Shown here piece by piece: positions 2,864 to 20,127 of a stretch of DNA of 21,442 nucleotides. Each line of letters begins with the position of its first letter. Positions within the stretch are counted from its first letter, which is position 1. The DNA comes from a virus. Under the pieces are notes generated by a model. That model did not search any database, was not told the origin of the DNA, and saw nothing but the letters and a program-made list of their open reading frames with translations. A program made the translations under genes and the position numbers. Location of the stretch: positions 1 through 21,442 of the IMG/VR virus record IMGVR_UViG_3300030943_000190. One strand, written 5' to 3'.

Positions 2864-2896
2864 TACGATTTTCCTCCGAAGAAATAGGGAACGATC

Positions 2897-2904
2897 TATT
2901 TATT
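2897..2904 (-). promoter_or_regulatory. T4-type late promoter for the repeat fibre gene
   Basis: AATAAATA on the minus strand, about 34 bases upstream of the ATG at 2863, in the 57-base gap after the DUF5659-like gene. It fits the NATAAATA late consensus. No convincing -35 box is seen, as expected for this promoter class. Confidence 0.7.
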
Positions 2905-2920
2905 ATGCGACTATTACTTT

Positions 2921-3142
2921 TTATCTACGTGACGCGGTAGTTAGTGCCTTGACTGCGTTGTTAAACCCAGCCGGTTCCACCAGAAGTCTTCCGAGGTCAT
3001 AGTCGTTAATGACCTCATCCGTTACATCGGCGAAGAAAAAAGTACCTTTGCTTCCGTTCTTTTCGATGTGGGTCAGTTGATAACCCAACACCTTAAGTGA
3101 AGCACCTAGGACAATATCAGTTGTTTCAAAAGTGTTGCTCAT
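2921..3142 (-). CDS. Small DUF5659-like protein (73 aa)
   Basis: A small protein of unknown function. The pattern FETTDIVLGASLKVLGYQL, then a beta hairpin (KGTFFFAD), then LLVEPAGFNNAVKAL and a basic end (SRR), resembles DUF5659, a family of short, mostly phage-encoded proteins of about 70 residues; this match is from memory. I chose the ATG at 3142 over an in-frame one ten codons upstream. AAAGGA lies six bases before 3142, and the longer form would start inside the leader, eight bases from the promoter core at 3177-3184. The gene has its own late promoter and sits among fibre and baseplate genes, so it may be a minor virion part or assembly helper. No catalytic motif or membrane segment is visible. 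Confidence 0.75.
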   Translation of the reverse strand: MSNTFETTDIVLGASLKVLGYQLTHIEKNGSKGTFFFADVTDEVINDYDLGRLLVEPAGFNNAVKALTTASRR

Positions 3143-3176
3143 TCGATTTCCTTTGTGAATTCGCTTTATCACTTTA

Positions 3177-3184
3177 TATTTATC
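3177..3184 (-). promoter_or_regulatory. T4-type late promoter for the DUF5659-like gene
   Basis: GATAAATA on the minus strand, followed by TAAAG, 35 bases upstream of the ATG at 3142 and 25 bases after the stop of the 190-residue gene. It matches the late box found in front of the other transcription units. Confidence 0.7.
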
Positions 3185-3208
3185 AACTTAGTCGTCCTAG
3201 ATTCTTAT

Positions 3209-3781
3209 TTACGACACACTGATGGTCAGGGTGTACGTGATAAGGATGCTGCGATTGGCCGTCTTTTCAATCGGGTTGAACACGATGTGCGAGAGCAGCA
3301 AGCCATCCGGTGAGTACAAACCGAGTTCGTCGAAAGTGAACGTGCTGTCCGGGTTGGTGGTAATACCATCAGAAACGGCCTGGCCGTTCGGTTCGGTGGC
3401 ATCGAGTTCCATCGTACACGTCACGATGGAGGTAATTGCTGGGGCCGGAGAAGCGGCCGAAATGACAGAGTTCGTCGACGGAGTGCCGGCGGTCTGGTCA
3501 TCAATTTGCTCTTCATACGTACCGTTGTACAGCGTAGCTTCAGTACCGCTGACATTCGGTGTCAGGTACGTGATTTGCAGGCTCGTGTTGATGTGCGTGC
3601 CGCCATTCCCAAGGCCCATCTTTAGGACATAGGAATTGGCTTCATGGGCCAAGCCACGGGCAATGACACGGGCCATGTTCTGAGGGTGGATCGCGTTTTT
3701 CTTGTCGATCAGAACTTCTTTCGTGTCCTGGTCGATAGCATGAACGTGACCAACGATCTTGAATTGTGCTCCAGTTTCCAT
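3209..3781 (-). CDS. Virion structural protein (190 aa), probably tail- or baseplate-associated
   Basis: I recognise the general type but no named family. The N terminus (residues 1-45) has a short beta segment (FKIVGHVHAID), then INKKN-like polar residues and a helix (QNMARVIARGLAHEAN). The rest is beta-rich and Ser/Thr-rich, with YLTPN near 70 and NGTYEEQIDD near 86-95. The end (FDELGLYSPDGLLLSHIVF, then ILITYTLTISVS) resembles C-terminal strands of structural proteins in T4-like marine phages. There is no signal peptide or transmembrane segment. AGGAG stands seven bases before the ATG at 3781, and a late promoter lies at 3813-3820. A phage-collar, baseplate or fibre-adaptor role is possible; its position between two large structural genes and a fibre gene supports a virion location. 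Confidence 0.75.
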   Translation of the reverse strand: METGAQFKIVGHVHAIDQDTKEVLIDKKNAIHPQNMARVIARGLAHEANSYVLKMGLGNGGTHINTSLQITYLTPNVSGTEATLYNGTYEEQIDDQTAGTPSTNSVISAASPAPAITSIVTCTMELDATEPNGQAVSDGITTNPDSTFTFDELGLYSPDGLLLSHIVFNPIEKTANRSILITYTLTISVS

Positions 3782-7079: not shown

Positions 7080-10000
7080 TTATTGTCTCGTGTTGATCAG
7101 CTTGATCGAGTGCGCAGAAATCATAGACGTCTTGAAGATGTCGGTAAATTCAAAATTCAATGACAGCGCATCGTAGAGCAGAGTGAAGAAGATTTCGTTG
7201 ATTTGGGTCGGTTTAGCGTTTTCCCAAACATCATCAAGGAACTTTCTTGTGCTTGCCGGGGTTTCGAAATATTTATCGATATTCATAAGATCGAAACCAG
7301 TGAACGAGATGAAATCAGGAATCTCAATCACTGTGCTAGACTGATTGACAATTCGAAGACTTGTGCTCTTGATTGTGCTCTTGATCGATGCGACAGCCAG
7401 AGACTGATCGACAAAGATTTGATCTTTACCAAAGCCATACTTCTTCTTCGTGTTGTGCTTCTCATCATAGCGAATGAGCTTCGTTGAAGGGATCGATTCT
7501 CCGATATGGTTCTGGCCTACGGCAGCGTCGGTGATCAAGTCCCAAAGCTTCTTCGGAATGCGAGTCTTCTGAGATGGTTTGATCAGAGTCCACTCGGTAT
7601 GAGTGTTCTTGTGATCCAAACCATCCAAAGAATCACGAAGAGTAAAGTCTTTCGTGAAGCGAATCTTGTACGAATCATCGCGGCGAGCAAACTGATTCAG
7701 ACCGTAGATGATGAACTGATTGTAGCGGGTCGGATACTCTTCGTACTCGATCTTCGCTCCTTGAAGGATTGCGAAAGTATTGGTGTTTGTCTTGAGAAGA
7801 GCAGCAGCACTTTGGAGAGTAATGTTACGACCGTCGGCCACCACATTCTTACCGGAAACCCAGAAATAGTACTTGGTCTGGACCAATGTGCCTTCAGAGT
7901 TGTAGATGTCTTTCGTGGTGTACTGATAGTCGTACTTGTACTGGACGAGCTTGAGCGGCTTGTCGGCTGTTGGATTCGTCGATGGTTCGAAAGAAAGCTC
8001 TTCATCCGAAGGTTGATACTTTCGGATGACGACTTTGATCTTGTCGCCGACGTTGATCGCCGAGTTGATAGTGACCAGATTTCCGGTGATGCCATAGTTG
8101 GTGTCGGCCAAGAACATGCCATTCTTGTAGACAAAGACGCGATCAGTGATCAGCTCGAGATTCTGCGAGAACTCAAGTTGTTTGACAACACCATCAAACT
8201 TCATGGTCTTGATCTCGTCATTCATCAAGACCCACGAACCCCACTCGTAGACATACTTGCTAATCGTCTTACCAAGGTGGGTACGACCATCTTTAAGCCA
8301 GGCTTGAATGTCTTCATGGATCGAAGGAAGTTCTTGATCGATAGCGACATAGTCGCCGTACACTGGTTCCCAGTTGTTGTATGGAACATCATTGTCAGCA
8401 GCAAGTTGAGACACCGTTGGTTCAATCCAGGCGGCCCACTTAGAGACACCAGTCGAAGGTTCGAGGTCAGTAGTGATGAACGGCATCTTCACATTAGCAT
8501 TGATCACTGAGAATGCATACACATCATGAGAAGCATTCCCAAACTGGTCAGCAATGACTACAGTCTTATTTGGATCATTGAAATACGCGCCAGTCGTCTT
8601 AGCTGAGATCGTGATGCCAAGAATATCGAAGTTGAAGCTGACACGAACGCCATTCACTGCCGGAACTGTAGAAATTTCCAGGCGTTGCGAGAGACCTGTG
8701 GTCACTGACGTAGCCACCAAGTAAGTAGCCGTCCCAACCACTTCTTTTCTGAAGATGATCTGGCCAAGATTGTTCTTGATCAGGCCAATCGAATCGTCAG
8801 CATTGACTTCGATCTTTCCGTCAACAAAGAACGTTGGGTCAAAGACCAGACCGTTATGGACCGGTTGGTTGTTGTACTCGATGAATGGGTCGGTCGAGGT
8901 GCCAATGACACAGTACTCAGCACCAATGAGCTCGGCCGTACCAATGAGCTTTCCATCAGTCTGGCACGAGAGGTAAGCACCTTCCACCAGACCATGAGAT
9001 GACAACGAACCAACCAAAGCTGCAACCACAGTTGCACCAAGAGAAACAGTCGCCGAAGCAGAGAAGAGTTTGACCCCAGTGTCAGCAGATTCGATGAATG
9101 ATCTTTGGCTGAGGATTGGGTTCTTTGAGTGCTTCCATCCAACAACACGATACTTCCAAGATCTGGTTCTCGAGTACAATTCTTTAAAGGCCGGGACACC
9201 AGAGTAACGCTGTCTAGGACTGACGGTAGGATCATCCTTTTGAGTCTCGATGTAAGCAACCCAATTGTTTGGATGGACTACCGACTCAGTCCATTCAGCG
9301 ACTTCGACCAGTGAGGCGTCAGAGATAGCACCCCATCTCGAGATACGCTCATTGACGTCCGGGAAGATCTTGTCATCGTAGTACGGGACATAGTCGAGGT
9401 TCTTGGTATTCCACCAGACTTTACCAACCTCATTCTCACCCCATGGGTGAAGCAGATCGTAGTTCTGATTCTTAGTCGTTCTGGTCGAGTAGTTGTACTT
9501 CGCTGGGTTCACGCTCGACTTGATATCGATGATCTCGATAGCCTCAGAAGGATGCGAATCACGAGCCGGATCCCAGAGAATGATGTTGTCGTAGATCACT
9601 GAGTTGTTGCGATAGTCGATGATCTTCGCTGGATTGAACTTATCGAAAGCTGGACCATAGCAACGCACGGTGACTCTAGTGATTGGGACTCCACCAATCT
9701 CATTAGAATTGAATTGAATGGTGGTCGAATTGATACGTTCAAACATCAAGTTGTTGTTCTCAAGCAGCATTGAAGTTGAATCGTACGGGATCAGTGAGTC
9801 ATCCATGCTTTCAACGTCAAAACCGGTTTCGATACGACCGAGTTCGGTCCCATCAGGAAGGAACACGCGGACCAAGTCGGCAATGATCTCTTTCCCATTG
9901 GAATCAACCAGGTCGTAAGGCACACCGAGCAGCAGACCAGTTGGTTGAAAGATCTCAACTGATCCAATTTCATTTGCCACAAAATAGATCTTGCTGGCGG

Positions 10001-13000
10001 CGGTATCGTCAGGAGAGAACCACATGTCTTCATTTGTAGGTTCAACAGCGATGAAGCCAGTAGGAACTTCCTCGATTGCATATTTGTTGTCTTCGAGGAA
10101 CAAGAACTTCGTGAACTGTGTCGAGACCATGTTTGCATCGATCTTCAGTTCTGGGAAGACCTTTGGACGTGAGTCGCCGAATTCTGCAACCTTATAAGCC
10201 CAGTACTCATCAATCATGGCTTGCTTGTAGCGAACAGAGTTCACAAAAGCATCGATTGAGAAGTTCGAACCCTTGTTGTTGATCAGACCACGCCAGAAGC
10301 CGAACATGGATCTATCGGACATGTTCAGATCTTTAAAGTAATCCGGAACCTTGTAGCCGATCAGATCTCTAGCAGCAGAAGTCATCTGTGCATTAGAAGT
10401 TTGGTATTGTGGGTTGTAAACATTTTGCAGATCGTCAATCGTTGCATCGATGTTTTTGGTGACCTGGTGGTCAGTGACAAAGTGGCCACCAAATGAGATG
10501 CGGCCCGTGTAGTTAGCTTGTTTCTCACCTTCAATAAGCAGGCGACTGACGCGAACACCAAGGAACTCGTCGTACAACATCTGACCGCCGTTGGTGTAAG
10601 AATCAAACAAGACTACGTGTTCGTACTCATTGATGATCGCATTCAAGTTGAACATCGGAACGTCGGATACGATTTCAGTGATGTCATCATCTCTGAATAC
10701 ACGGATTGAACTGCTACCGATGCTCTCATTGCCGATGTCAGTGATGTACTGATTGATTCTCGAGTCATACACTTGGCTTGTGCCAAAGTTCGCAACCATG
10801 CCTCGTGGAGTCTTGATCCATACTTTGGACTTGAACGGGTTGAGGACAAAGCCAGCACCAGCATCAAGACCGGAATACTGGAGGTCAATGAACTTCTCAA
10901 TCTCCAAATTCCAGTTAGAGCTACGGCCAGTAGCCTCATCAATGATTGGCTCTTCGAAGTTGTTGAAGACCCAACCAGCATCTTCAAGGAACTTCATGTA
11001 TCCAAAGATGAAGCTTGCTACGTTCTGGATGCCTGTGATGGTGAACGGGGTGATTGCAGTGTAAATGTTGGTTGGGACCAGATATTGTTTCCAAGCGACC
11101 GGAGTGTTGCTACCGCCAAGAGCTGTGAAGCTGATCATTTTGCTGAGCTTCTCATTCTTCGTGGCCTGGTCATCGGTGGATTCGATCACTGGTTGTTCGA
11201 ATCCATAGAACGAAACGATAGGCAGTGACGGATTGAAAGTTTCAATCTTGTACACCCAATCAGAGCCATCACCGACAGGCACGTCGGTATTGTTCTTTCT
11301 TTCGATCGAGCCACGCTTAGCAAGCTGGACACGAATAGCCGTCAGCTGCTTCGAATCAGTGTTTGGATTCTCTTTGATTCGAACCATCATGTTCGTCGAA
11401 TCGATCTTGAATTGGTCCGTAGAGATCTTAAGGTTCTCGGTACTGATCAGACCACCAACTCTGTACCCAAGCATGACGACCCAGCTCTTGAGGATGCTTG
11501 AGCTCAACGAGATGTTCAGATCCTCGGAGGTAGCACGAGCCACTTGAGAAAAGACCTGCGACATGCCATGAATGATTCGAACCTTTGTCGGTTCGAATGT
11601 CGTAGTGATAGTTTCCAAGTCCGAGTTGTACTTAATCACAAAGCGATCACCGTTTCGGAACCCGTATTGATTCTGAGTTACGAGGAATCGAATGTCTGAG
11701 CTTTGGAACGGAACATCGACATGGCCGAAGCCAATGAACTTACCATCGGCAGCAACAGCGAACAGCTTATCGATAGCTGATTTGACCTCGACGGTAAAGA
11801 CACGATCAGCAGTCGCTACTTGGTAAGAGTAGACTTCAATAGCTCCATTCTGCGCGGTGTCGGTTACACTCTCATTGTGAACAACCAACTCTGATTGCTT
11901 CGGCTTACGAACGAGGTGGCGATCGATTTCGTACTCGTCCACTACGACTGTGTCCAGACCCCAAGTCTTAGTCACAAAGGTAAGCGGGTCAAGTTTGAAG
12001 TAAGCAATCAGCTCGGCGTACTTGAACTCGATCGACTTTCTCCAGATCAGTTCGATCAGACCATGATCACCGAACTCGTAACGAGCATCAATGCCAGAAG
12101 GAATCTTCTTCAAAAGCGCCTCGGACGCTTCAGGGAGCGCAGCATTGACATACGGTGGTAACAACGTATTGTCAGCAACGTTGACGCTCAGGGGGCGGCC
12201 TCCGATAGCCTCTTTGACATATGTCCACATTGCCGGCGTGAACGGAATAATCTGCAGCGAGTACATAACTGAAGCAAAGGTCTGCTTCTCCATTCCGACC
12301 ACTACCCAAGGTTCAAGGTTTGGACGGGCTGTACCGTACACTGCTTTGTACACGCTCTGCCAAGTAGCATAGCCAGTCCCAGCGGTGAACACAGCATTGC
12401 GGTAGTTCCACGTGAAAGCATCTTGCGAATCATAGCTCGTCGAGTAGATGTCAATGCCGTATTTCGCACCAAAGCGAGAGAACTCGTATTGCATCAAGCG
12501 AGTGAACTTCTCGGCTTGATTCACCTTCATCGTGTCGATATCCAATTTGACACCCGCAATAGGTGGGACACCGTCGTGAAGAACTGTTTCGACTTTGAGG
12601 ATCAGGTTGTTGACGATCAGGTCAAACTTGAGATTGGTCCAGGCACTTTTATTATCGCCAAGTTCCTGCCAGTAGGTCAAGGTTTCCTGACCGTTGAATA
12701 CACTCATTCTTTTTCTGAGAACGTTGGTATCACGATCGTACCAATAGTCACCAACTCTAGGACCGACAGGCTCAATAGCGAAGGAGTCAGATAGCACATT
12801 GTAGTAGTACACAGTGTTCGCCACCGTGTCGTACCAGAACTGTCCCTTGAATGGTTTGCTAGGCGGGATACCAGCGGTGATAATACCTGGGAGAGTCTGT
12901 CCGTTGGCGCGCTTGAACATCTTGCTTACGATCTTTTTGGCGTAGTCCGGGTCGAACTCGTAGGCTTTGGAAACGTGACCATCGTGGTGGACGATGACAT

Positions 13001-15584
13001 TCATGCCGAGATCGTTGTCAAACTTGAACATTGGCTTGACTTTGTCAGTCAGTCCAAGATAAGGAAGAGTCACAACGCAGTTCGGAATTGCTGAGGTGGT
13101 GTCGTTGAACAGTCGAGCCACATTATCGTCGATCACGGATGACGAAGAAAGCACTACGTTGTTTTGGCGGCTGTTGAAGGCGATGAAACGATCATAGATC
13201 GTGTCATTGAAATCTTCGATCTGAAGATTGATGCCTTCATCAGTGATCATCTCTGGGAGATTCTGTAGGACAAACTCTCTCATCGATGAAATGAAGGCAT
13301 CGTACTTTGAACGCATGAACTCAACCATGCTCATCGGTGAATTAGCTTCTTGAAGCATCAAGCCAATGAACAGGTTGTAATCACCATTGAACTGTTTGAT
13401 ATGACCACCAAGACCAAGGTCAACGTTCAAAAGCTTTCTGTAATTGTTCACACCAAAGTTCGAACCAGCAAAGCCGGATTGAGCCCCAATCACAGCGATG
13501 AAGTGCGAATGGAGGTCGCCTTGCTTGAATTGCGATTTCACAACATTGGAGATGTTGTGGAACAGTTGCTTAGGAATTTCCCAAGTGCCGTCATTGGCAT
13601 CCGGAGAGGTTTCAACAACACCGGCCGGTGGTGGCACCAAGAACTGACTTTGGTTCGAGTAATGCTTGAGAAGAGTGCCAAGCTTGTAGTAGCGAACAAC
13701 TCTGGTCAGAGTATCGACTTCGTTATTCACGAGGTCGGTCTTGAACATGAAAGTGCCAAGCTTGTAGAGCCACTTCGAGATAGGATCGTTTATGGCAGGC
13801 ATGACATCTTCGAAGTGTTCGAAGGCCGACCCTTCCATCAAGAACTGCCCAGCCTCATTGTAAAGCTTGAACTTTGGATGTTGGTTGTGTGTGGTCTTTG
13901 AAAGCGACGAGACCGCAAGTTCGGCTTCCATTGAGAGATTGAACTCAACAATAGGCATGGTTGCTTGGATCAGACTTCCAAGATCAAAGTTTGCTGCTTT
14001 CGCATCGCTGACATGAACCCAGAAGTTGCCAGTACTCCAACCAGAAGTACCACCCATCTCGATCACATGATACTCAGGATTGCCAAACTGATTGTGAGTC
14101 GGCTTGGTATCAAGAAGGTGACCGAACCAGTAGTAGTCTTTGTAGTTCTTGAGCTTCTGCGTATTGATCAGGTGGCCAGAAGTATCCGGCTTCACGTAGC
14201 GCGGCTTCACGATTTCGCCTGGAGCCCAGATCGATTTCAGAGCGCCACCCTTCTTGTAGAAATAGCTTTCGACAGTGTCAGCATCGATCAGACCATGTTC
14301 GAACAGATAGTCACCATTCGAATCAGAAACAATGCGGCGACCAATCACCGAGTCCAATGGCACTTCATTAGATTCAGAGTAGTAGAAGATCGAGCTAGCT
14401 TTTTTGGCGTGTGATCCATCAGCATGGTAAAGATTAAACAACGGGAGCTGATTGAGCTTCGTCTTGACTTGGTAGTAGAACTCACCGGTATCGGAAGGTG
14501 AACCTTCGCTGGTATGTTGATTGAGTTCCGACTCCATGAACAGTGAGTACTCGATAATTGGACGCGTGGCCTGGATACAATCAGGCAGTGAGAAGCCAAG
14601 ACCTGCAACATCATCAAGGTGGACCCAGAAATTCCCAACAGACCAATCAGAAACACCACCTCGTTCGATGAGGTAGTATTCTGGAACTGTGAGCTTGTTG
14701 AACTCGTATTCGATCGCCACAAGCGCAGTGTTGCTGTTCAGGAGTCTTGCAGTCCCGATGACCGGATTCTTGAAGTGAATAATCAGGTGGTTCTTATCAA
14801 CGTATTCAACGTTTGTCGGTTCGACATAACGTTGTTTGACAGTGTCAAAAACGCTGATCACTTTCGGATTGAAGCCGAGCTCGTGTCGAATCGACCAATC
14901 AGTTTGTGCGACACTGACCGAGAAGTGTGAGACGTAAATATTTTCGTTGAAATAGAAGTTTTCAACGCCAGCAGTGACATCAGACGTATCATCCATGATG
15001 CTGTACTGATCATCAAACGTAGTGACGTCCAGGCCATTGGTTACAACGGTCTTCTTCAGTGCGCTCAAAGATCTTCTGTAAGCCGGAGTGAGACGTTGAG
15101 TCTCTGAGACCAGCGAGTTGACCTGAGTATCATAGACCAGGTCGTACTTTGGGATCGACTCACAAAGGTGACCAACCCAGTAGTACTTGTTGTAGTTGCT
15201 GAACTTATCGAAGTGGATTGGAGGGGCGAAGTTGAAGCTCTTCGTCTTGCCCCATTCAGCAAAGTTCTTCACATCAACGCCCATGAGTTCCATCTTGTTC
15301 AGAACATCAGCGAACGAGTAGATTTTCTCTTCGGTACCGTGCTTGAGATAGATCAACGGTTGAAGGTCGTTGATTCTGCGATCAATGGTTTGTTGTGGGA
15401 CGTACGGGGAGTACGGATCGTAATCCTCTGAACGATTTCCAACGAACCCATAAACCGGCACGCTTTCTGATTTCGTAACGTACTTATTGAACATGTTACG
15501 AATCAGCGACGTGATAGTTTTGTCGCGGAACTGCTGCGGAAGCAGATTGCTTAAGTCAAGAAACGGCTTTTGGTAGTCTGACAT
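7080..15584 (-). CDS. Giant virion structural protein (2834 aa), baseplate/tail-associated
   Basis: One uninterrupted frame for a protein of roughly 320 kDa. It resembles very long structural proteins of T4-like cyanophages and other large myoviruses, which often follow the gp6 gene. Landmarks: LLPQQFRDKTI (14-24); a HFDKFSNYNKYYW segment (124-136) echoed by DYYWFGHL (483-490); a beta module at 231-284; a duplicated block at about 303-354 and 504-556 (GNFWVH, IQAT, PIxE); GQFWYD and GDYWYD at about 914 and 945; IDEYWAYKVAEFGD near 1790; VGKVWWN near 2045; HTEWTLIKPSQKTRIPKKLW near 2665-2685; YGFGKDQIF near 2715. No enzyme motif, signal peptide or membrane segment was noticed. Its only Shine-Dalgarno is a GAGG 12 bases upstream, so initiation may be modest. 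It heads a transcription unit with the 1085-residue gene. A scaffold role around the baseplate or tail is inferred. Confidence 0.85.
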   Translation of the reverse strand: MSDYQKPFLDLSNLLPQQFRDKTITSLIRNMFNKYVTKSESVPVYGFVGNRSEDYDPYSPYVPQQTIDRRINDLQPLIYLKHGTEEKIYSFADVLNKMELMGVDVKNFAEWGKTKSFNFAPPIHFDKFSNYNKYYWVGHLCESIPKYDLVYDTQVNSLVSETQRLTPAYRRSLSALKKTVVTNGLDVTTFDDQYSIMDDTSDVTAGVENFYFNENIYVSHFSVSVAQTDWSIRHELGFNPKVISVFDTVKQRYVEPTNVEYVDKNHLIIHFKNPVIGTARLLNSNTALVAIEYEFNKLTVPEYYLIERGGVSDWSVGNFWVHLDDVAGLGFSLPDCIQATRPIIEYSLFMESELNQHTSEGSPSDTGEFYYQVKTKLNQLPLFNLYHADGSHAKKASSIFYYSESNEVPLDSVIGRRIVSDSNGDYLFEHGLIDADTVESYFYKKGGALKSIWAPGEIVKPRYVKPDTSGHLINTQKLKNYKDYYWFGHLLDTKPTHNQFGNPEYHVIEMGGTSGWSTGNFWVHVSDAKAANFDLGSLIQATMPIVEFNLSMEAELAVSSLSKTTHNQHPKFKLYNEAGQFLMEGSAFEHFEDVMPAINDPISKWLYKLGTFMFKTDLVNNEVDTLTRVVRYYKLGTLLKHYSNQSQFLVPPPAGVVETSPDANDGTWEIPKQLFHNISNVVKSQFKQGDLHSHFIAVIGAQSGFAGSNFGVNNYRKLLNVDLGLGGHIKQFNGDYNLFIGLMLQEANSPMSMVEFMRSKYDAFISSMREFVLQNLPEMITDEGINLQIEDFNDTIYDRFIAFNSRQNNVVLSSSSVIDDNVARLFNDTTSAIPNCVVTLPYLGLTDKVKPMFKFDNDLGMNVIVHHDGHVSKAYEFDPDYAKKIVSKMFKRANGQTLPGIITAGIPPSKPFKGQFWYDTVANTVYYYNVLSDSFAIEPVGPRVGDYWYDRDTNVLRKRMSVFNGQETLTYWQELGDNKSAWTNLKFDLIVNNLILKVETVLHDGVPPIAGVKLDIDTMKVNQAEKFTRLMQYEFSRFGAKYGIDIYSTSYDSQDAFTWNYRNAVFTAGTGYATWQSVYKAVYGTARPNLEPWVVVGMEKQTFASVMYSLQIIPFTPAMWTYVKEAIGGRPLSVNVADNTLLPPYVNAALPEASEALLKKIPSGIDARYEFGDHGLIELIWRKSIEFKYAELIAYFKLDPLTFVTKTWGLDTVVVDEYEIDRHLVRKPKQSELVVHNESVTDTAQNGAIEVYSYQVATADRVFTVEVKSAIDKLFAVAADGKFIGFGHVDVPFQSSDIRFLVTQNQYGFRNGDRFVIKYNSDLETITTTFEPTKVRIIHGMSQVFSQVARATSEDLNISLSSSILKSWVVMLGYRVGGLISTENLKISTDQFKIDSTNMMVRIKENPNTDSKQLTAIRVQLAKRGSIERKNNTDVPVGDGSDWVYKIETFNPSLPIVSFYGFEQPVIESTDDQATKNEKLSKMISFTALGGSNTPVAWKQYLVPTNIYTAITPFTITGIQNVASFIFGYMKFLEDAGWVFNNFEEPIIDEATGRSSNWNLEIEKFIDLQYSGLDAGAGFVLNPFKSKVWIKTPRGMVANFGTSQVYDSRINQYITDIGNESIGSSSIRVFRDDDITEIVSDVPMFNLNAIINEYEHVVLFDSYTNGGQMLYDEFLGVRVSRLLIEGEKQANYTGRISFGGHFVTDHQVTKNIDATIDDLQNVYNPQYQTSNAQMTSAARDLIGYKVPDYFKDLNMSDRSMFGFWRGLINNKGSNFSIDAFVNSVRYKQAMIDEYWAYKVAEFGDSRPKVFPELKIDANMVSTQFTKFLFLEDNKYAIEEVPTGFIAVEPTNEDMWFSPDDTAASKIYFVANEIGSVEIFQPTGLLLGVPYDLVDSNGKEIIADLVRVFLPDGTELGRIETGFDVESMDDSLIPYDSTSMLLENNNLMFERINSTTIQFNSNEIGGVPITRVTVRCYGPAFDKFNPAKIIDYRNNSVIYDNIILWDPARDSHPSEAIEIIDIKSSVNPAKYNYSTRTTKNQNYDLLHPWGENEVGKVWWNTKNLDYVPYYDDKIFPDVNERISRWGAISDASLVEVAEWTESVVHPNNWVAYIETQKDDPTVSPRQRYSGVPAFKELYSRTRSWKYRVVGWKHSKNPILSQRSFIESADTGVKLFSASATVSLGATVVAALVGSLSSHGLVEGAYLSCQTDGKLIGTAELIGAEYCVIGTSTDPFIEYNNQPVHNGLVFDPTFFVDGKIEVNADDSIGLIKNNLGQIIFRKEVVGTATYLVATSVTTGLSQRLEISTVPAVNGVRVSFNFDILGITISAKTTGAYFNDPNKTVVIADQFGNASHDVYAFSVINANVKMPFITTDLEPSTGVSKWAAWIEPTVSQLAADNDVPYNNWEPVYGDYVAIDQELPSIHEDIQAWLKDGRTHLGKTISKYVYEWGSWVLMNDEIKTMKFDGVVKQLEFSQNLELITDRVFVYKNGMFLADTNYGITGNLVTINSAINVGDKIKVVIRKYQPSDEELSFEPSTNPTADKPLKLVQYKYDYQYTTKDIYNSEGTLVQTKYYFWVSGKNVVADGRNITLQSAAALLKTNTNTFAILQGAKIEYEEYPTRYNQFIIYGLNQFARRDDSYKIRFTKDFTLRDSLDGLDHKNTHTEWTLIKPSQKTRIPKKLWDLITDAAVGQNHIGESIPSTKLIRYDEKHNTKKKYGFGKDQIFVDQSLAVASIKSTIKSTSLRIVNQSSTVIEIPDFISFTGFDLMNIDKYFETPASTRKFLDDVWENAKPTQINEIFFTLLYDALSLNFEFTDIFKTSMISAHSIKLINTRQ

Positions 15585-15628
15585 GAGATGGAGAACCTCG
15601 AAGGCTGAAATATTTGATGGGTCACTTC

Positions 15629-15636
15629 TATTTATT
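15629..15636 (-). promoter_or_regulatory. T4-type late promoter for the giant structural gene
   Basis: AATAAATA on the minus strand, 45 bases upstream of the ATG at 15584. It sits within an imperfect inverted repeat (15628-15652). It is the only match to the late box in the 101-base gap after the terminase-like gene. Confidence 0.7.
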
Positions 15637-15685
15637 TCTGGAGAAGAAATAGAAAAATGACCACTTTTCGGCCTAGGTTCTCACA

Positions 15686-16219
15686 TCACAGGCTTACTAA
15701 AAGTCTTCCATTGCTGCTGGCTAGACCAGGCAACAGACACGCATAGATCTCATCGTCAATGCTTTCCATCGTTCCACAGCTGAAATCAAGAAAGACGTGG
15801 TTCAGTGTCAAGCCTCTGAAATAGTTTGGGCCAGCCGGGGCGAAGTTAATTCTGGAACCATTTGTGAGTCTGAGTTGTTTTCTATTCTTTCCATCGAAAG
15901 CTTCGTAGAATCCAAAGTAGCCAAAGATGTCCTCAATGATTGACACAATCATGTCTCTGAAATTCTCCGCGATAGCCAGGCGCTGAGTCATAACCATTGA
16001 GAAGTTGTTAGGTTTCAGAACAGATTCACAGGCGATAATCCCCAACCCAAAGGTTGTTCGACCGCTAGCTCTATCACCACTGACGTGGGTGATTCTTTCA
16101 CCGGATTCATACTCTTCAAACCAACGTTCTTGGTCGGCATTGAGAGGTCCTTTTGTGACGAATCGTTGGAGAAGATTTCTCAGATTCAGTTCACTATAGT
16201 CTTTATAGATATTTGTCAT
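15686..16219 (-). CDS. Terminase large-subunit-like ATPase fragment (177 aa), probably inactive
   Basis: Resembles the N-terminal ATPase subdomain of T4 gp17-type terminases, the DNA-packaging motor. Landmarks in order: a predicted helix with NADQERWFEEY (28-37); GDRASGRTT (48-56), which aligns with the Walker A box SRQLGKTT of T4 gp17 but has Arg54 for the catalytic Lys; LRLTNGSRINF (116-126) and NYFRGLT (132-138), like the segment before Walker B; HVFLDF (141-146), a Walker B with Phe146 for the catalytic Glu. It stops at GRLLVSL, where motif III would begin, so the rest of the ATPase and the whole nuclease domain are missing (gp17 has 610 residues). No terminase sequence continues in frame after the TGA. 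An in-frame TAG 12 bases upstream fixes the start. The Shine-Dalgarno is poor and no exact late promoter precedes it. Options: decaying remnant, repurposed paralogue, or split terminase. Confidence 0.7.
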   Translation of the reverse strand: MTNIYKDYSELNLRNLLQRFVTKGPLNADQERWFEEYESGERITHVSGDRASGRTTFGLGIIACESVLKPNNFSMVMTQRLAIAENFRDMIVSIIEDIFGYFGFYEAFDGKNRKQLRLTNGSRINFAPAGPNYFRGLTLNHVFLDFSCGTMESIDDEIYACLLPGLASSNGRLLVSL

Positions 16220-16240: not shown

Positions 16241-16264
16241 GATGGAGACCTTTCGGTCTCCATC
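16241..16264 (-). terminator. Perfect hairpin with GAAA loop between gp6-like and terminase-like genes
   Basis: GATGGAGACC and GGTCTCCATC form a perfect 10-bp stem with a GAAA (GNRA) tetraloop on the minus strand, beginning five bases after the gp6-like stop codon. No U-run follows (ATCCTATAG), so it is not a standard terminator. It may be a weak terminator, an RNA-stabilising 3' end, or a leader element of the terminase-like gene. Confidence 0.5.
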
Positions 16265-16269
16265 GCTAT

Positions 16270-19200
16270 TTACGCCTTCTGGCGAAGGTTGATTCTGTTG
16301 AACGTTTCCGTCACCTCGATATCGTTGATCGTGGCTGCGGACTGAAGCACTTCGTCGTAGCCGGCTTCGATGATGAACAGCGACCCAAAGTAGTTCTCAA
16401 CGAAGGTTGGGACGATCACCACCGATGAAACTTCAGAGGCCATGCGTTGGTGAATCAGCGCCAGCAGTTCAGTTGCATAGAAGGTCTGACCGAAGTCCCA
16501 ACGCTCAATGGTGAAATACTCATTGATGATATTCAATACACTGACCTTCACTTGGTCTTTGGTCATGGTGGCATCTGGGCTTTGGATGACTCTGAACTTT
16601 GAACGAAGCTGAGCATCAGCAAGTGTTCCAAAGAGAAGCTTGATTTTTCCAGAGTGCATGACCACGGTATCAGAGATCATCTTCTTGTCCAGAAGAGCAC
16701 GATATGAAGTTCTGAGCTCGAGAGAAGTTGGTGGCAGTGGCATCAGAGAAGAGACACCATTGACGTAGTTGATCACTTCAGAGTAGTACCCGCGAGTGAG
16801 GACAAACGTGTCGATGATGTTTGAGGTTGATGGGTCGATCAGATTGGTGTTCGGGCTGTAGTGAAGCCACAGGAAATCAAGCTCGTCTTTACCAATTTTT
16901 CTGACATATTCACCAGCCACGTCATCGACGTAGGTCAAACCTCTCACATATGGAGTAGCTACAACCGGTTGCAGTTTGTCATCAACGTTGTTCACTTTGA
17001 AGTAAACGTAGTCATAGTTGATGTTCACAAACTCAGTGAACTGAAGACTGTTGTCAGGAGCCCCATCACCAGACAGAAGTGAACCACTGCTATCGGTTGG
17101 CATCACCAACAAGGCGTTGTTGTTCACATCGCCATTGTTGTAGCGGACAGCATCCATGACATCGTAAACTTCATTCTTACCAAGAGCTATGTCGTAGAAC
17201 GAATCGTTAATCAAGCGCTTTCTGGTGTTCGACTTGAGAAGTGTCACTGAGTCTCTGACACGTTTCTTTGTGACACGGTCAACGATAAAGTTCTCATTGT
17301 TGTACCAGAACTTCGTGGTCGGGCTTTCAACAATCATTCGCAGATCACGGTAGATGATGTCCCAATGGAGAAGATTCCCTTCGATATCGTCAACACGCTC
17401 AACGATGATAAGCCAAGAGTTCACTGGGTCGTTTTGGTCGAATTTCATGTCGACGATATTGGCTGTGAGATCTGATTCTTCAATGATCTCCCAGCGTCCA
17501 GCCAAGTTCACGGTTGTTGCATCACCCCAGCCTTGAATAACAAACGAGTCGCCAAGAACGAAGTCGGTGAGGTCCGTGAGGTCCACCATGATCTTAAAGC
17601 TGATTTTGCCATTGGTGAAGTCCTCACCAACGCTTGTAGTCCAAGCTGCACCTGAGATGCTGCCGGTCACAAGGAAGGTGCCGCCGCCGGTCACTTCGTT
17701 GATGAGTTGGATATTCCAATCCTCATCATTTGAGCCAGAGATATCCAGATTTGTCAGTGTGCCGTTCCCGACCATATCGCGAGTGTTGATGTAACGGAGA
17801 CCGAATCTTTTGAATGCTTGGACTGTCTCTTGGATCCCAGAAACGCTGTCGGCGAAGTTATTGTAGGTCACAATACCATCGAGTGAGAGCTTCATGTTTT
17901 CGTCGTAGATTCGGTGGTCTGGATCGGTATCGACTACCGCATGAAGGACATCGTTGATCTTTACGACTCTTGATGGTTCGCCATAGAAGTGACGATCCAA
18001 GCGACCTTGAATCTCAGTCTTCTCAAGCAGTGGATGGTTCTGAGTATCTTTGCCGCGGTACAGGATTTTCGTTTCTTCGATAAACTTCTGTCTCGGATTG
18101 ATCACAAGCCCGGCAGTGATTGGATCCATGGCATTGATGTACGACACCATGTTGATCATACCGTTAGTCTTCAGGATTGGTTCAAGAACCGAATCAATCA
18201 GGTTGCGACTCGAAGAGTTAGAGATGAAAGATTGTTTCTTGAAATCCCAGTAGATTCGAAGATCGTTACCAAAGAGTTTGATGTTTTGATATTGGCCCGA
18301 TGCATCATTCCATTCAAGATATTTCGGCTGGCCGGCAAAGGTTCTGTTGACCGAGCGAAGACGAAGGATTGAAGGATCCTTGAGCATGAACGTATTGTAG
18401 TCTTGACCGTTGACCATACGGTTTTGCGAGTAGTAGGTCTTTGGAGCGGTCGATCGAATGTGCTCAATGTCTTCAGACATTGATCCATTTTGGAGGGTCG
18501 AGATCAGAGAGAATCTGAAAGTGGCAGATTCGTTGATGTCCAACTTCGAGATGTAACCGAACTGGAGGGACTTGTTGATGACCTTCGACTTTTGAAGTAC
18601 GAGGTTCTTGTTCAGAGACTGACGAACCCAAATGTGGAAAGTCCCAAGAGGGATTTCTGAGTAATCGCCATCACCAAAGTTCAAACGGATTCGATCGTTC
18701 TCAAGCGTCTCGACTTCATACTTCTTACGGCTTTTCTGCGTATTGAAGTAGATGTTCTGCGAGTTGATCGTCTCGGTCTTCTCCCAGATGTCAGCAATCT
18801 GACCAGAGAAGTCAACACGTTGAACCCAGACGTCAATGTCGTTGATGTTGTCGAGGGCGATATCGATGAAGTTATTTGGGATCGGATTTGACATCGTAAT
18901 TTCGAGACGTTGCAACGAACCTTGCTTAGTCATCATCATGAAGCCTGTCATTTCAGAGCCGTCACCGAGGCCGTCATTACAGTAAAGCATCGTCATCTGA
19001 GCCGTGAGCGAAGGAGTCTTCTCGAACGGGCCACTCTCGTCTAGGTCAGTTGGGGTCACTTCCATCTTGACGATTTCGTCACCGACGTTCACCGAGTAAG
19101 AGAACACGCCATTCTTGAAAACGTCACGGTCACCGACATTGTTCTTGAGTTCGTATTGTTGGAACACCACGTCATCAACTTGGAATGACTTCAACGGCTG

Positions 19201-19695
19201 TCCAAATGGCTTGGACATGATGCGGTCCATAACCAGGAAGAACTGATCTTTCCACAATGGATTATTCGGATCATTCCAAACGATGTTGCGGTTCGTGAGA
19301 TTATTCCCGTGAGAGTCAATCACCTCTTCAGAGCATGAAACAGCGCTGAGCTTTACAAGGCCACGAAGTGGGATATTTCTGGTCGCGTTGTAGGAGACCA
19401 GTTTAGCCAGTCGTAGAATTGATTGCTTGCGTTCGGCAGTCGAGATGAAGTTCTCATGAGCGACCATGTCGATACGGTATGCAAGCTGCTCAGCAACATA
19501 CGAAAAGACTTCGATCAGAGCAATGAATTGGCTTGACTCGATGTAATCGTTGAAGTCTTCGGGATAGTAGAACTTGACGTAATCGATCAGCGATCGCTTG
19601 ATCGTGTCGTAGTCGTAGCTTACGAAATTAACGTTCTCGAAAGCTGAGTAAATCTTATCCCAGGTCTCAGCCGCATAGAGGTTCTGAATGGCCAT
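16270..19695 (-). CDS. gp6: Baseplate wedge protein gp6-like (1141 aa)
   Basis: In T4, gp6 dimers join the six wedges into the inner ring of the baseplate. The N terminus fits the family: FVSYDYDTIKRSLIDYVKFY (24-43), then YPEDFNDYIESSQF and a helix ending in ENFISTAERKQSILRLAKL (81-99), the usual pattern of wedge proteins with a baseplate_J-type core. The C terminus is equally typical: RWDFGQTFYATELLALIH, SSVVIVP, FGSLFII and SAATINDIEV in the last 85 residues. At 1141 residues it is far longer than T4 gp6 (660). The extra length is mostly central and beta-rich (roughly 650-1000), containing YSPNTNLIDPSTSNIIDTF. It follows the gp25-like gene, an order also known from T4-like cyanophages. Its own late promoter lies at 19724-19731; the Shine-Dalgarno (TGGA) is weak. 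Confidence 0.9.
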   Translation of the reverse strand: MAIQNLYAAETWDKIYSAFENVNFVSYDYDTIKRSLIDYVKFYYPEDFNDYIESSQFIALIEVFSYVAEQLAYRIDMVAHENFISTAERKQSILRLAKLVSYNATRNIPLRGLVKLSAVSCSEEVIDSHGNNLTNRNIVWNDPNNPLWKDQFFLVMDRIMSKPFGQPLKSFQVDDVVFQQYELKNNVGDRDVFKNGVFSYSVNVGDEIVKMEVTPTDLDESGPFEKTPSLTAQMTMLYCNDGLGDGSEMTGFMMMTKQGSLQRLEITMSNPIPNNFIDIALDNINDIDVWVQRVDFSGQIADIWEKTETINSQNIYFNTQKSRKKYEVETLENDRIRLNFGDGDYSEIPLGTFHIWVRQSLNKNLVLQKSKVINKSLQFGYISKLDINESATFRFSLISTLQNGSMSEDIEHIRSTAPKTYYSQNRMVNGQDYNTFMLKDPSILRLRSVNRTFAGQPKYLEWNDASGQYQNIKLFGNDLRIYWDFKKQSFISNSSSRNLIDSVLEPILKTNGMINMVSYINAMDPITAGLVINPRQKFIEETKILYRGKDTQNHPLLEKTEIQGRLDRHFYGEPSRVVKINDVLHAVVDTDPDHRIYDENMKLSLDGIVTYNNFADSVSGIQETVQAFKRFGLRYINTRDMVGNGTLTNLDISGSNDEDWNIQLINEVTGGGTFLVTGSISGAAWTTSVGEDFTNGKISFKIMVDLTDLTDFVLGDSFVIQGWGDATTVNLAGRWEIIEESDLTANIVDMKFDQNDPVNSWLIIVERVDDIEGNLLHWDIIYRDLRMIVESPTTKFWYNNENFIVDRVTKKRVRDSVTLLKSNTRKRLINDSFYDIALGKNEVYDVMDAVRYNNGDVNNNALLVMPTDSSGSLLSGDGAPDNSLQFTEFVNINYDYVYFKVNNVDDKLQPVVATPYVRGLTYVDDVAGEYVRKIGKDELDFLWLHYSPNTNLIDPSTSNIIDTFVLTRGYYSEVINYVNGVSSLMPLPPTSLELRTSYRALLDKKMISDTVVMHSGKIKLLFGTLADAQLRSKFRVIQSPDATMTKDQVKVSVLNIINEYFTIERWDFGQTFYATELLALIHQRMASEVSSVVIVPTFVENYFGSLFIIEAGYDEVLQSAATINDIEVTETFNRINLRQKA

Positions 19696-19743: not shown

Positions 19744-20127
19744 TTAGTTTCTTGACTTGATTTCGATGTTGAACTCTTCGGTCACATTGAATTCGTTGAA
19801 GAGTAGGATTACCACGGCCACCAAAGCATTGTTGTCTGGGAACGTGAGGACATCCATCGATAGCAAAGTGACACGAGGATCTGCGTCGAAGACCATAGTC
19901 AGATCTTCTCTGACTACATCTGCAACCTCTTGATCATTTGGTTCGAAGGTTAGCGTAGGGATTCTCGTCCCCCAGGCAGGCATGTGAATGCGTTCACCTG
20001 GAATCGTGTAGATGTGATTGATGAGATCCTGCTTCACACATTCGATATTGTACGTTCCGAATGAGACACCATTCGCGTTGTACGACTTCGTGCTGAAGCC
20101 TTTGTAGAGGTTTCCAATAGTTGCCAT
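19744..20127 (-). CDS. gp25: Baseplate wedge protein gp25-like (127 aa)
   Basis: Matches the GPW/gp25 family, a baseplate component shared by contractile phages, type VI secretion (TssE) and related machines. It links sheath, wedge and hub. Family features: NIECVKQDLINHIYTIPGER (27-46), then HMPAWGT (48-54), FEPND (61-65), the helix ADVVREDLTMVF (69-80), DPRV (83-86) and two C-terminal strands. The length is close to T4 gp25 (132). Despite the family's lysozyme-like label, these proteins are structural. The ATG overlaps the stop of the gp5-like gene by one base (TAATG), with GGAAAG five bases upstream inside that gene, so translation is probably coupled. Confidence 0.93.
   Translation of the reverse strand: MATIGNLYKGFSTKSYNANGVSFGTYNIECVKQDLINHIYTIPGERIHMPAWGTRIPTLTFEPNDQEVADVVREDLTMVFDADPRVTLLSMDVLTFPDNNALVAVVILLFNEFNVTEEFNIEIKSRN

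Follow-up and report, generated by a model that had tools for sequence, protein, structure and literature searches.

A terminase-like ATPase domain with degenerate catalytic motifs in the baseplate gene cluster of a viral contig

Short TerL-like proteins of large phages

The phage packaging motor is usually viewed as a ring of one protein, the large terminase (TerL). In T4 (gp17) and P74-26, TerL is an active ATPase with a catalytic Walker-A Lys and Walker-B Glu, a subdomain II, and a nuclease domain. A truncated TerL has been described in Rak2-like phages and in PhiM12 and PhiN3, where it was termed unusual (PMC5259590), and XaC1 was reported to encode "two large terminase homologs in tandem" (PMC11273794). 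A literature search, with subscription journals mostly outside it, found these genes mentioned only briefly and no paper that treats the short copies as a class of pseudo-ATPases. Here, a further short TerL-like protein of 177 residues, designated P0001, is described from an entire IMG/VR contig of a giant phage (21,442 b; the window).

In large phages of the T4 superfamily, short TerL-like open reading frames (ORFs) typically lie directly 5' of terL. This arrangement is found in RaK2, 121Q, XaC1, Hallingskeid, CBB, and PhiM12 (gp17.2), and in the IMG/VR contigs G005, G006, L115, L146, L158, and L186. In these six phages and six contigs, the short gene and terL overlap or are separated by at most 62 nt. 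No gene occupies this place in the RaK2 relatives Munch and fENko-Kae01. Among 11 short TerL-like proteins, P0001 included, the catalytic Lys is kept in two and the catalytic Glu in one; the P-loop Arg is kept in 10, the RG Arg in 10, the RG Gly in all 11, and the Walker-B Asp in 10. In TerLs, the Lys, Glu, P-loop Arg, RG Arg, and Walker-B Asp are each retained in 31/31. Loss of the RG Arg is seen in the RaK2 and Phosso copies. The class thus spans a graded series from catalytically intact to dead. The copies of L186 (2-706) and L158 (2092-2748) are both directly 5' of terL, the former with Lys and Glu kept and the latter with Lys kept, and they represent early steps in the same type of duplication. 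Because the L186 copy nests among TerLs in the phylogenetic tree, the short TerL-like proteins probably have at least two origins.

P0001 shares a feature of this class, a standalone TerL ATPase domain without a nuclease domain, but it is not located directly 5' of terL. In Sinorhizobium phage PhiM12, gp17.2 (YP_009143010.1, 196 aa) is likewise an ATPase domain only, with its end just after motif III and with the RG motif and P-loop Arg kept. However, its catalytic Lys and Glu are intact, and it lies between terS (gp16) and terL (gp17). The Rak2-like truncated TerLs (CBB_274, GAP32; RaK2 ORF110 and 121Q gene 3, which correspond to phrog_27915) are about 227-235 aa long and, like P0001, lack the nuclease domain and have lost the catalytic Lys and Glu. 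They differ in lying directly 5' of terL and overlapping it, in reaching about 50 aa beyond motif III, and in having Leu or Thr in place of the Lys that is Arg in P0001. CBB_274 has the dead pattern and resembles P0001 in structure (TM 0.74). A profile comparison of the RaK2 and 121Q copies with TerL gave only a weak match (46% probability), and their placement in the class is based on gene position, a weak profile match to P0001 and the L115 copy, and the CBB paper (PMC5259590), in which the other Rak2-like phages are also described as having the truncated copy. ORF353 of Xanthomonas phage XaC1 is also a TerL ATPase domain without a nuclease domain (Lys to Thr, DE to DN), but it is longer and adjoins terL. 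The protein of Sinorhizobium phage Phosso (XYS97501.1) also breaks the positional rule: this dead TerL-like domain is distant from terL (52 kb) and beside the major capsid gene. Unlike P0001, it has 281 aa, a Lys to Ile change, no RG Arg, and another gene neighborhood. The Phosso gene (L221 4809-5654) is annotated as a terminase small subunit, yet its product is TerL-ATPase-like, with Lys changed to Ile and DE to DN.

Two other terL loci showed unusual arrangements. On the minus strand of L106 (IMGVR_UViG_3300010413_000004), terL is divided between a 296-aa N-terminal piece and a 384-aa C-terminal piece; their ends are intein-like, and a 506-aa ORF separates them. The arrangement resembles a split intein into which an ORF has been inserted. 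On the minus strand of L107 (contig G004), an opposite-strand gene of about 650 aa is inserted just before terL; by eye, it looks like an acetyltransferase/ParB-like fusion.

Motifs, predicted fold, and gene neighborhood of P0001

A first-pass annotation of the window had reported a 177-residue frame at 15686-16219 with a clean start and stop. The frame is confirmed, and it lies on the minus strand (16219..15686), on which the annotation was silent, running from ATG to TGA. The segments that it had aligned with T4 gp17 are all present: GDRASGRTT (residues 48-56), NGSRI (120-124), FRG (134-136), and VFLDF (142-146). On the minus strand, the adenine-binding Q-motif Gln, Q30, is encoded at 16130..16132; this residue is also present in 31/31 TerLs. 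The degenerate Walker A motif, G48-T56, follows at 16052..16078. Comparison of T4 SRQLGKTT with DRASGRTT of P0001 shows that the P-loop Arg is retained (R50), T4 Q163 is replaced by Ala (A51), and the catalytic Lys, present in 31/31 TerLs, is replaced by Arg (R54). The RG motif, R135-G136, is encoded at 15812..15817, and the degenerate Walker B motif, V142-F146, at 15782..15796; D145 is kept, and in the alignment F146 takes the place of the catalytic Glu of the DE pair found in 31/31 TerLs. The first-pass reading of a Lys to Arg and a Glu to Phe change therefore stands. So does its view that the protein ends at motif III and lacks the nuclease domain, since the C-terminus (...GRLLVSL) falls within the motif III strand (residues 172-177, RLLVSL; 15689..15706) and the stop codon follows directly, without subdomain II or a nuclease domain. 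Thus, P0001 shares with T4 gp17 and P74-26 TerL the fold, Q-motif, P-loop Arg, RG Arg, and Walker-B Asp, but not the catalytic pair or the downstream domains.

Trans arginine finger function has been assigned to R139 of P74-26 TerL (PMC5727402). Sequence alignment with the P74-26 R139A structure (4znj) identifies the RG Arg as R139, and its equivalent in P0001 is R135. In D6E TerL, the trans Arg is R158, which differs from the RG Arg, so not every TerL uses the RG Arg as its finger. Retention of the RG Arg may reflect folding instead of a finger role.

The relationship to TerL is visible by several methods. An HMM built from TerL ATPase domains only scored P0001 at 33.7 bits (E 2e-9), compared with 6.0 for the best of 2000 shuffles, and PHROG TerL profiles matched with E values of 2e-5 to 2e-4. 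A tblastn search of 50,697 phage records with P0001 returned TerLs only, mostly from RaK2/121Q/Munch-type jumbo phages and also from cyanophages. Among phages related to the window by gp6, contig G004 supplied the best match, its TerL (E 7e-9). A profile of P0001 and its L115 homolog matched a profile of 16 TerLs with 97% probability (E 4e-11). The AF2 model of P0001 is confident (pLDDT 88.1, pTM 0.87), and a Foldseek search of the PDB with this model placed the T4 gp17 ATPase first (E 1.4e-7, TM 0.75) and P74-26 TerL next. These results bear out the by-eye assignment to TerL. The shuffles, the profile comparison, and the fold search rule out a chance resemblance. Pfam assigned P0001 to no family and phmmer found no match in the PDB, so the homology is visible only with profiles or structure. 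Searching viral contigs with P0001 alone and phages with the window by megablast also returned nothing. Matches to P0001 within the gp6 coding region of L058, L062, and L073 were treated as chance. Taken together, these results make it almost certain that P0001 is a TerL-derived pseudo-ATPase.

The gene is flanked upstream by a gp6-like baseplate wedge protein of 1141 aa (16270..19695, minus; PHROG 10646) and downstream by a giant tail/baseplate protein of 2834 aa (7080..15584, minus); gp25 is at 19744-20127 (minus). The contig carries no terL. In related phages, no gene was found between gp6 and the giant gene in 46/46 junctions (22-270 nt), nor in the junctions of XacN1, PA5oct, and L195. 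This place had been called unexpected for a packaging gene, and no relative examined has a gene there; the 46 gene-free junctions and L195 rule out a general gene slot. The simplest reading is that a gene was inserted after gp6.

Several signals surround P0001. A strong hairpin, with a perfect 10-bp stem and a GAAA loop (16241..16264, minus), lies between the gp6 stop and the P0001 start and is not followed by a U-tract. The T4-late-promoter-like AATAAATA (15629..15636, minus) is upstream of the giant tail gene, within a long hairpin at 15590-15680. In relatives, the late-promoter-like NATAAATA recurs between gp6 and the giant gene; because the motif is the same, P0001 lies upstream of the old promoter. 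Across the window, NATAAATA occurs on the minus strand mostly upstream of genes (e.g., 567, 2897, 3177, 3813, 15629, and 19724). The T4-late-promoter-like motif TATAAATA, with one mismatch, has 11 matches in the window compared with 5.06 expected. A 17-nt inverted repeat, 88% complementary, flanks P0001 (15645-15661 and 16215-16231); it is AT-rich and may be chance. Elsewhere in the window, a 732-aa ORF (665-2863, minus) has a codon-position composition unlike that of the other window genes (GC1 0.73, GC3 0.40); it matches PHROG 13589 as well as a family of virion structural proteins.

This setting, in a late baseplate operon between gp6 and the giant gene with late-promoter-like motifs around, would suit a neofunctionalized virion or tail-assembly protein whose fold was recruited to the baseplate. 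However, the position of a gene says little by itself, the class is linked to terL in other cases, and P0001 retains the TerL-specific Q30, R50, R135, and D145, for which there is no obvious structural-protein reason. Such a role is therefore unlikely.

A sister protein and retention of the reading frame

An IMG/VR profile scan identified an unannotated short TerL-like protein of 197 aa in contig L115 (IMGVR_UViG_3300036884_000092; 2878-3471). It is the only close homolog of P0001 found. The two proteins are 28-30% identical, and the L115 copy likewise has Arg in place of the Walker-A Lys (GRRQSGRSS), has lost the Walker-B Glu (VFIDCW, Glu to Cys), and ends at motif III (NKLIVSLGA). Unlike P0001, it is outside the baseplate cluster and is 20 aa longer, mainly on the N-terminal side. 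Its stop codon is separated by 1 nt from the GTG of an intact terL (start worked out from the translation), so the sister phage has a full-length terL alongside the short copy. Searching phages with the L115 copy and genome contigs with A3 returned nothing.

P0001 and the L115 copy group as sisters with support of 99/94 in the tree of all short copies and 100/100 in the tree of these two with TerLs; the branches are long, here and elsewhere in the tree. Four TerL rows were cut short in the tree with all short copies, and the rows were correctly cut in the reduced tree and the retention table. The TerL of L115 groups with those of the window relatives G004, G005, G006, and XacN1 (92/95).

The sister protein bears on whether P0001 is debris, a non-functional terL fragment copied into the baseplate cluster with its frame intact by luck. 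The absence of a gene at this place in the 46 junctions, L195, XacN1, and PA5oct would fit debris, as would the truncation, the loss of catalytic residues, and the codon usage. The latter, at -1.19 per codon, is the lowest among the sampled window stretches, about 2.9 SD below the mean, as would suit a recent acquisition or relaxed selection. It is nonetheless clearly in-frame and speaks for retention in being much nearer to the window genes (-1.00 +/- 0.06) than any other frame is (-1.34 to -1.52). However, the L115 copy, beside terL, has the same Lys to Arg change and the same 3' end. The two proteins are identical at 52/174 residues, and at fourfold codons of identical residues the third base is common in 4/20, no better than the 5.4 expected by chance, so synonymous sites are saturated. 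That both frames stayed open and kept their derived features across a divergence that saturates silent sites is the main argument against decay. The confident fold prediction also argues against debris, as does purifying selection on the class where it is measurable: dN/dS is about 0.03-0.2 in the RaK2-group copies, which are remote relatives of P0001. The corresponding RaK2 TerL comparison was excluded, since a divergent stretch close to the RaK2 intein raises its value. P0001 is thus probably not debris, an explanation with a rather low probability, and has probably been retained by selection. The L115 sister also supports the suggestion of the first-pass annotation that P0001 is a retained paralog.

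Possible functions and significance

The reading favored here, which has about an even chance of being correct, is that P0001 is a standalone dead TerL ATPase-domain paralog that was maintained by selection, relocated from terL to the baseplate operon, and serves as a packaging partner. The protein presumably folds and is expressed at a late stage of infection, and it may well act on TerL or on packaging. We infer that it most likely partners or regulates the TerL motor without hydrolyzing ATP. P0001 would bind TerL via the surface used between TerL subunits, the arginine-finger face, which is retained in nearly all class members, and as a non-hydrolyzing partner it could blunt, cap, or tune the motor. 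T4 motors can incorporate ATPase-dead gp17 subunits and still assemble and package, more slowly (PMC8589836), which makes such a partner physically plausible; the mutation used, Q163A, falls at the site of A51 in P0001. Because subdomain II and the nuclease domain are missing, P0001 cannot be an ordinary ring subunit, and it more likely caps or regulates the ring than fills a complete place in it. That P0001 joins or caps the TerL ring is a tentative proposal with perhaps a modest chance. More doubtful is the idea that dead TerL domains offer a trans arginine finger to active TerL, forming heteromeric rings in some jumbo phages.

P0001 could instead bind DNA, the portal, or TerS in place of TerL during packaging initiation. 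The position of the PhiM12 short copy between terS and terL is consistent with this role. However, replacement of TerS is excluded because several relatives have separate TerS-like genes, and P0001 ends before subdomain II, with the T4 portal-contact region farther along the protein than this end. This role is therefore quite improbable. A further alternative is that P0001 is a decoy or antagonist of TerL-sensing host defense, in which the dead domain occupies the sensor. Avs proteins bind the TerL fold, and the TerL chain of the Avs3-TerL complex (8dgc) is among the matches to the predicted structure of P0001. The class is patchy and changes rapidly, in contrast to TerL (121Q and RaK2 are 31% identical in the short copy and 83% in TerL), and lost nucleotide binding would fit a non-triggering ligand. 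However, the strong tandem association with terL points to a role in packaging; the chance of a decoy is slim. Finally, P0001 is most improbable as the N-terminal half of a terL split by an intron, an intein, or a trans-acting break, with the other half elsewhere in the phage: although its end coincides with a conserved motif, where introns and inteins commonly insert, and intein-like insertions interrupt the TerLs of G003 and RaK2, this explanation is rejected because a motor made this way would be dead without the catalytic Lys and Glu, the L115 sister adjoins a complete and catalytically intact terL, and the window has no intein or intron signature and, in a six-frame scan, no C-terminal TerL half.

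The Lys to Arg form that ends at motif III and is placed between gp6 and a giant tail gene is new, and R54, F146, and R135 are concrete residues at which the packaging-partner reading can be tested. P0001 indicates that such a gene can separate from terL yet be kept. The class to which it belongs occurs in many large phages, where it loses catalytic residues and keeps a subunit-contact Arg. If the packaging-partner reading is true, the dead TerL domains beside terL would amount to a natural counterpart of the in vitro doping of T4 gp17.
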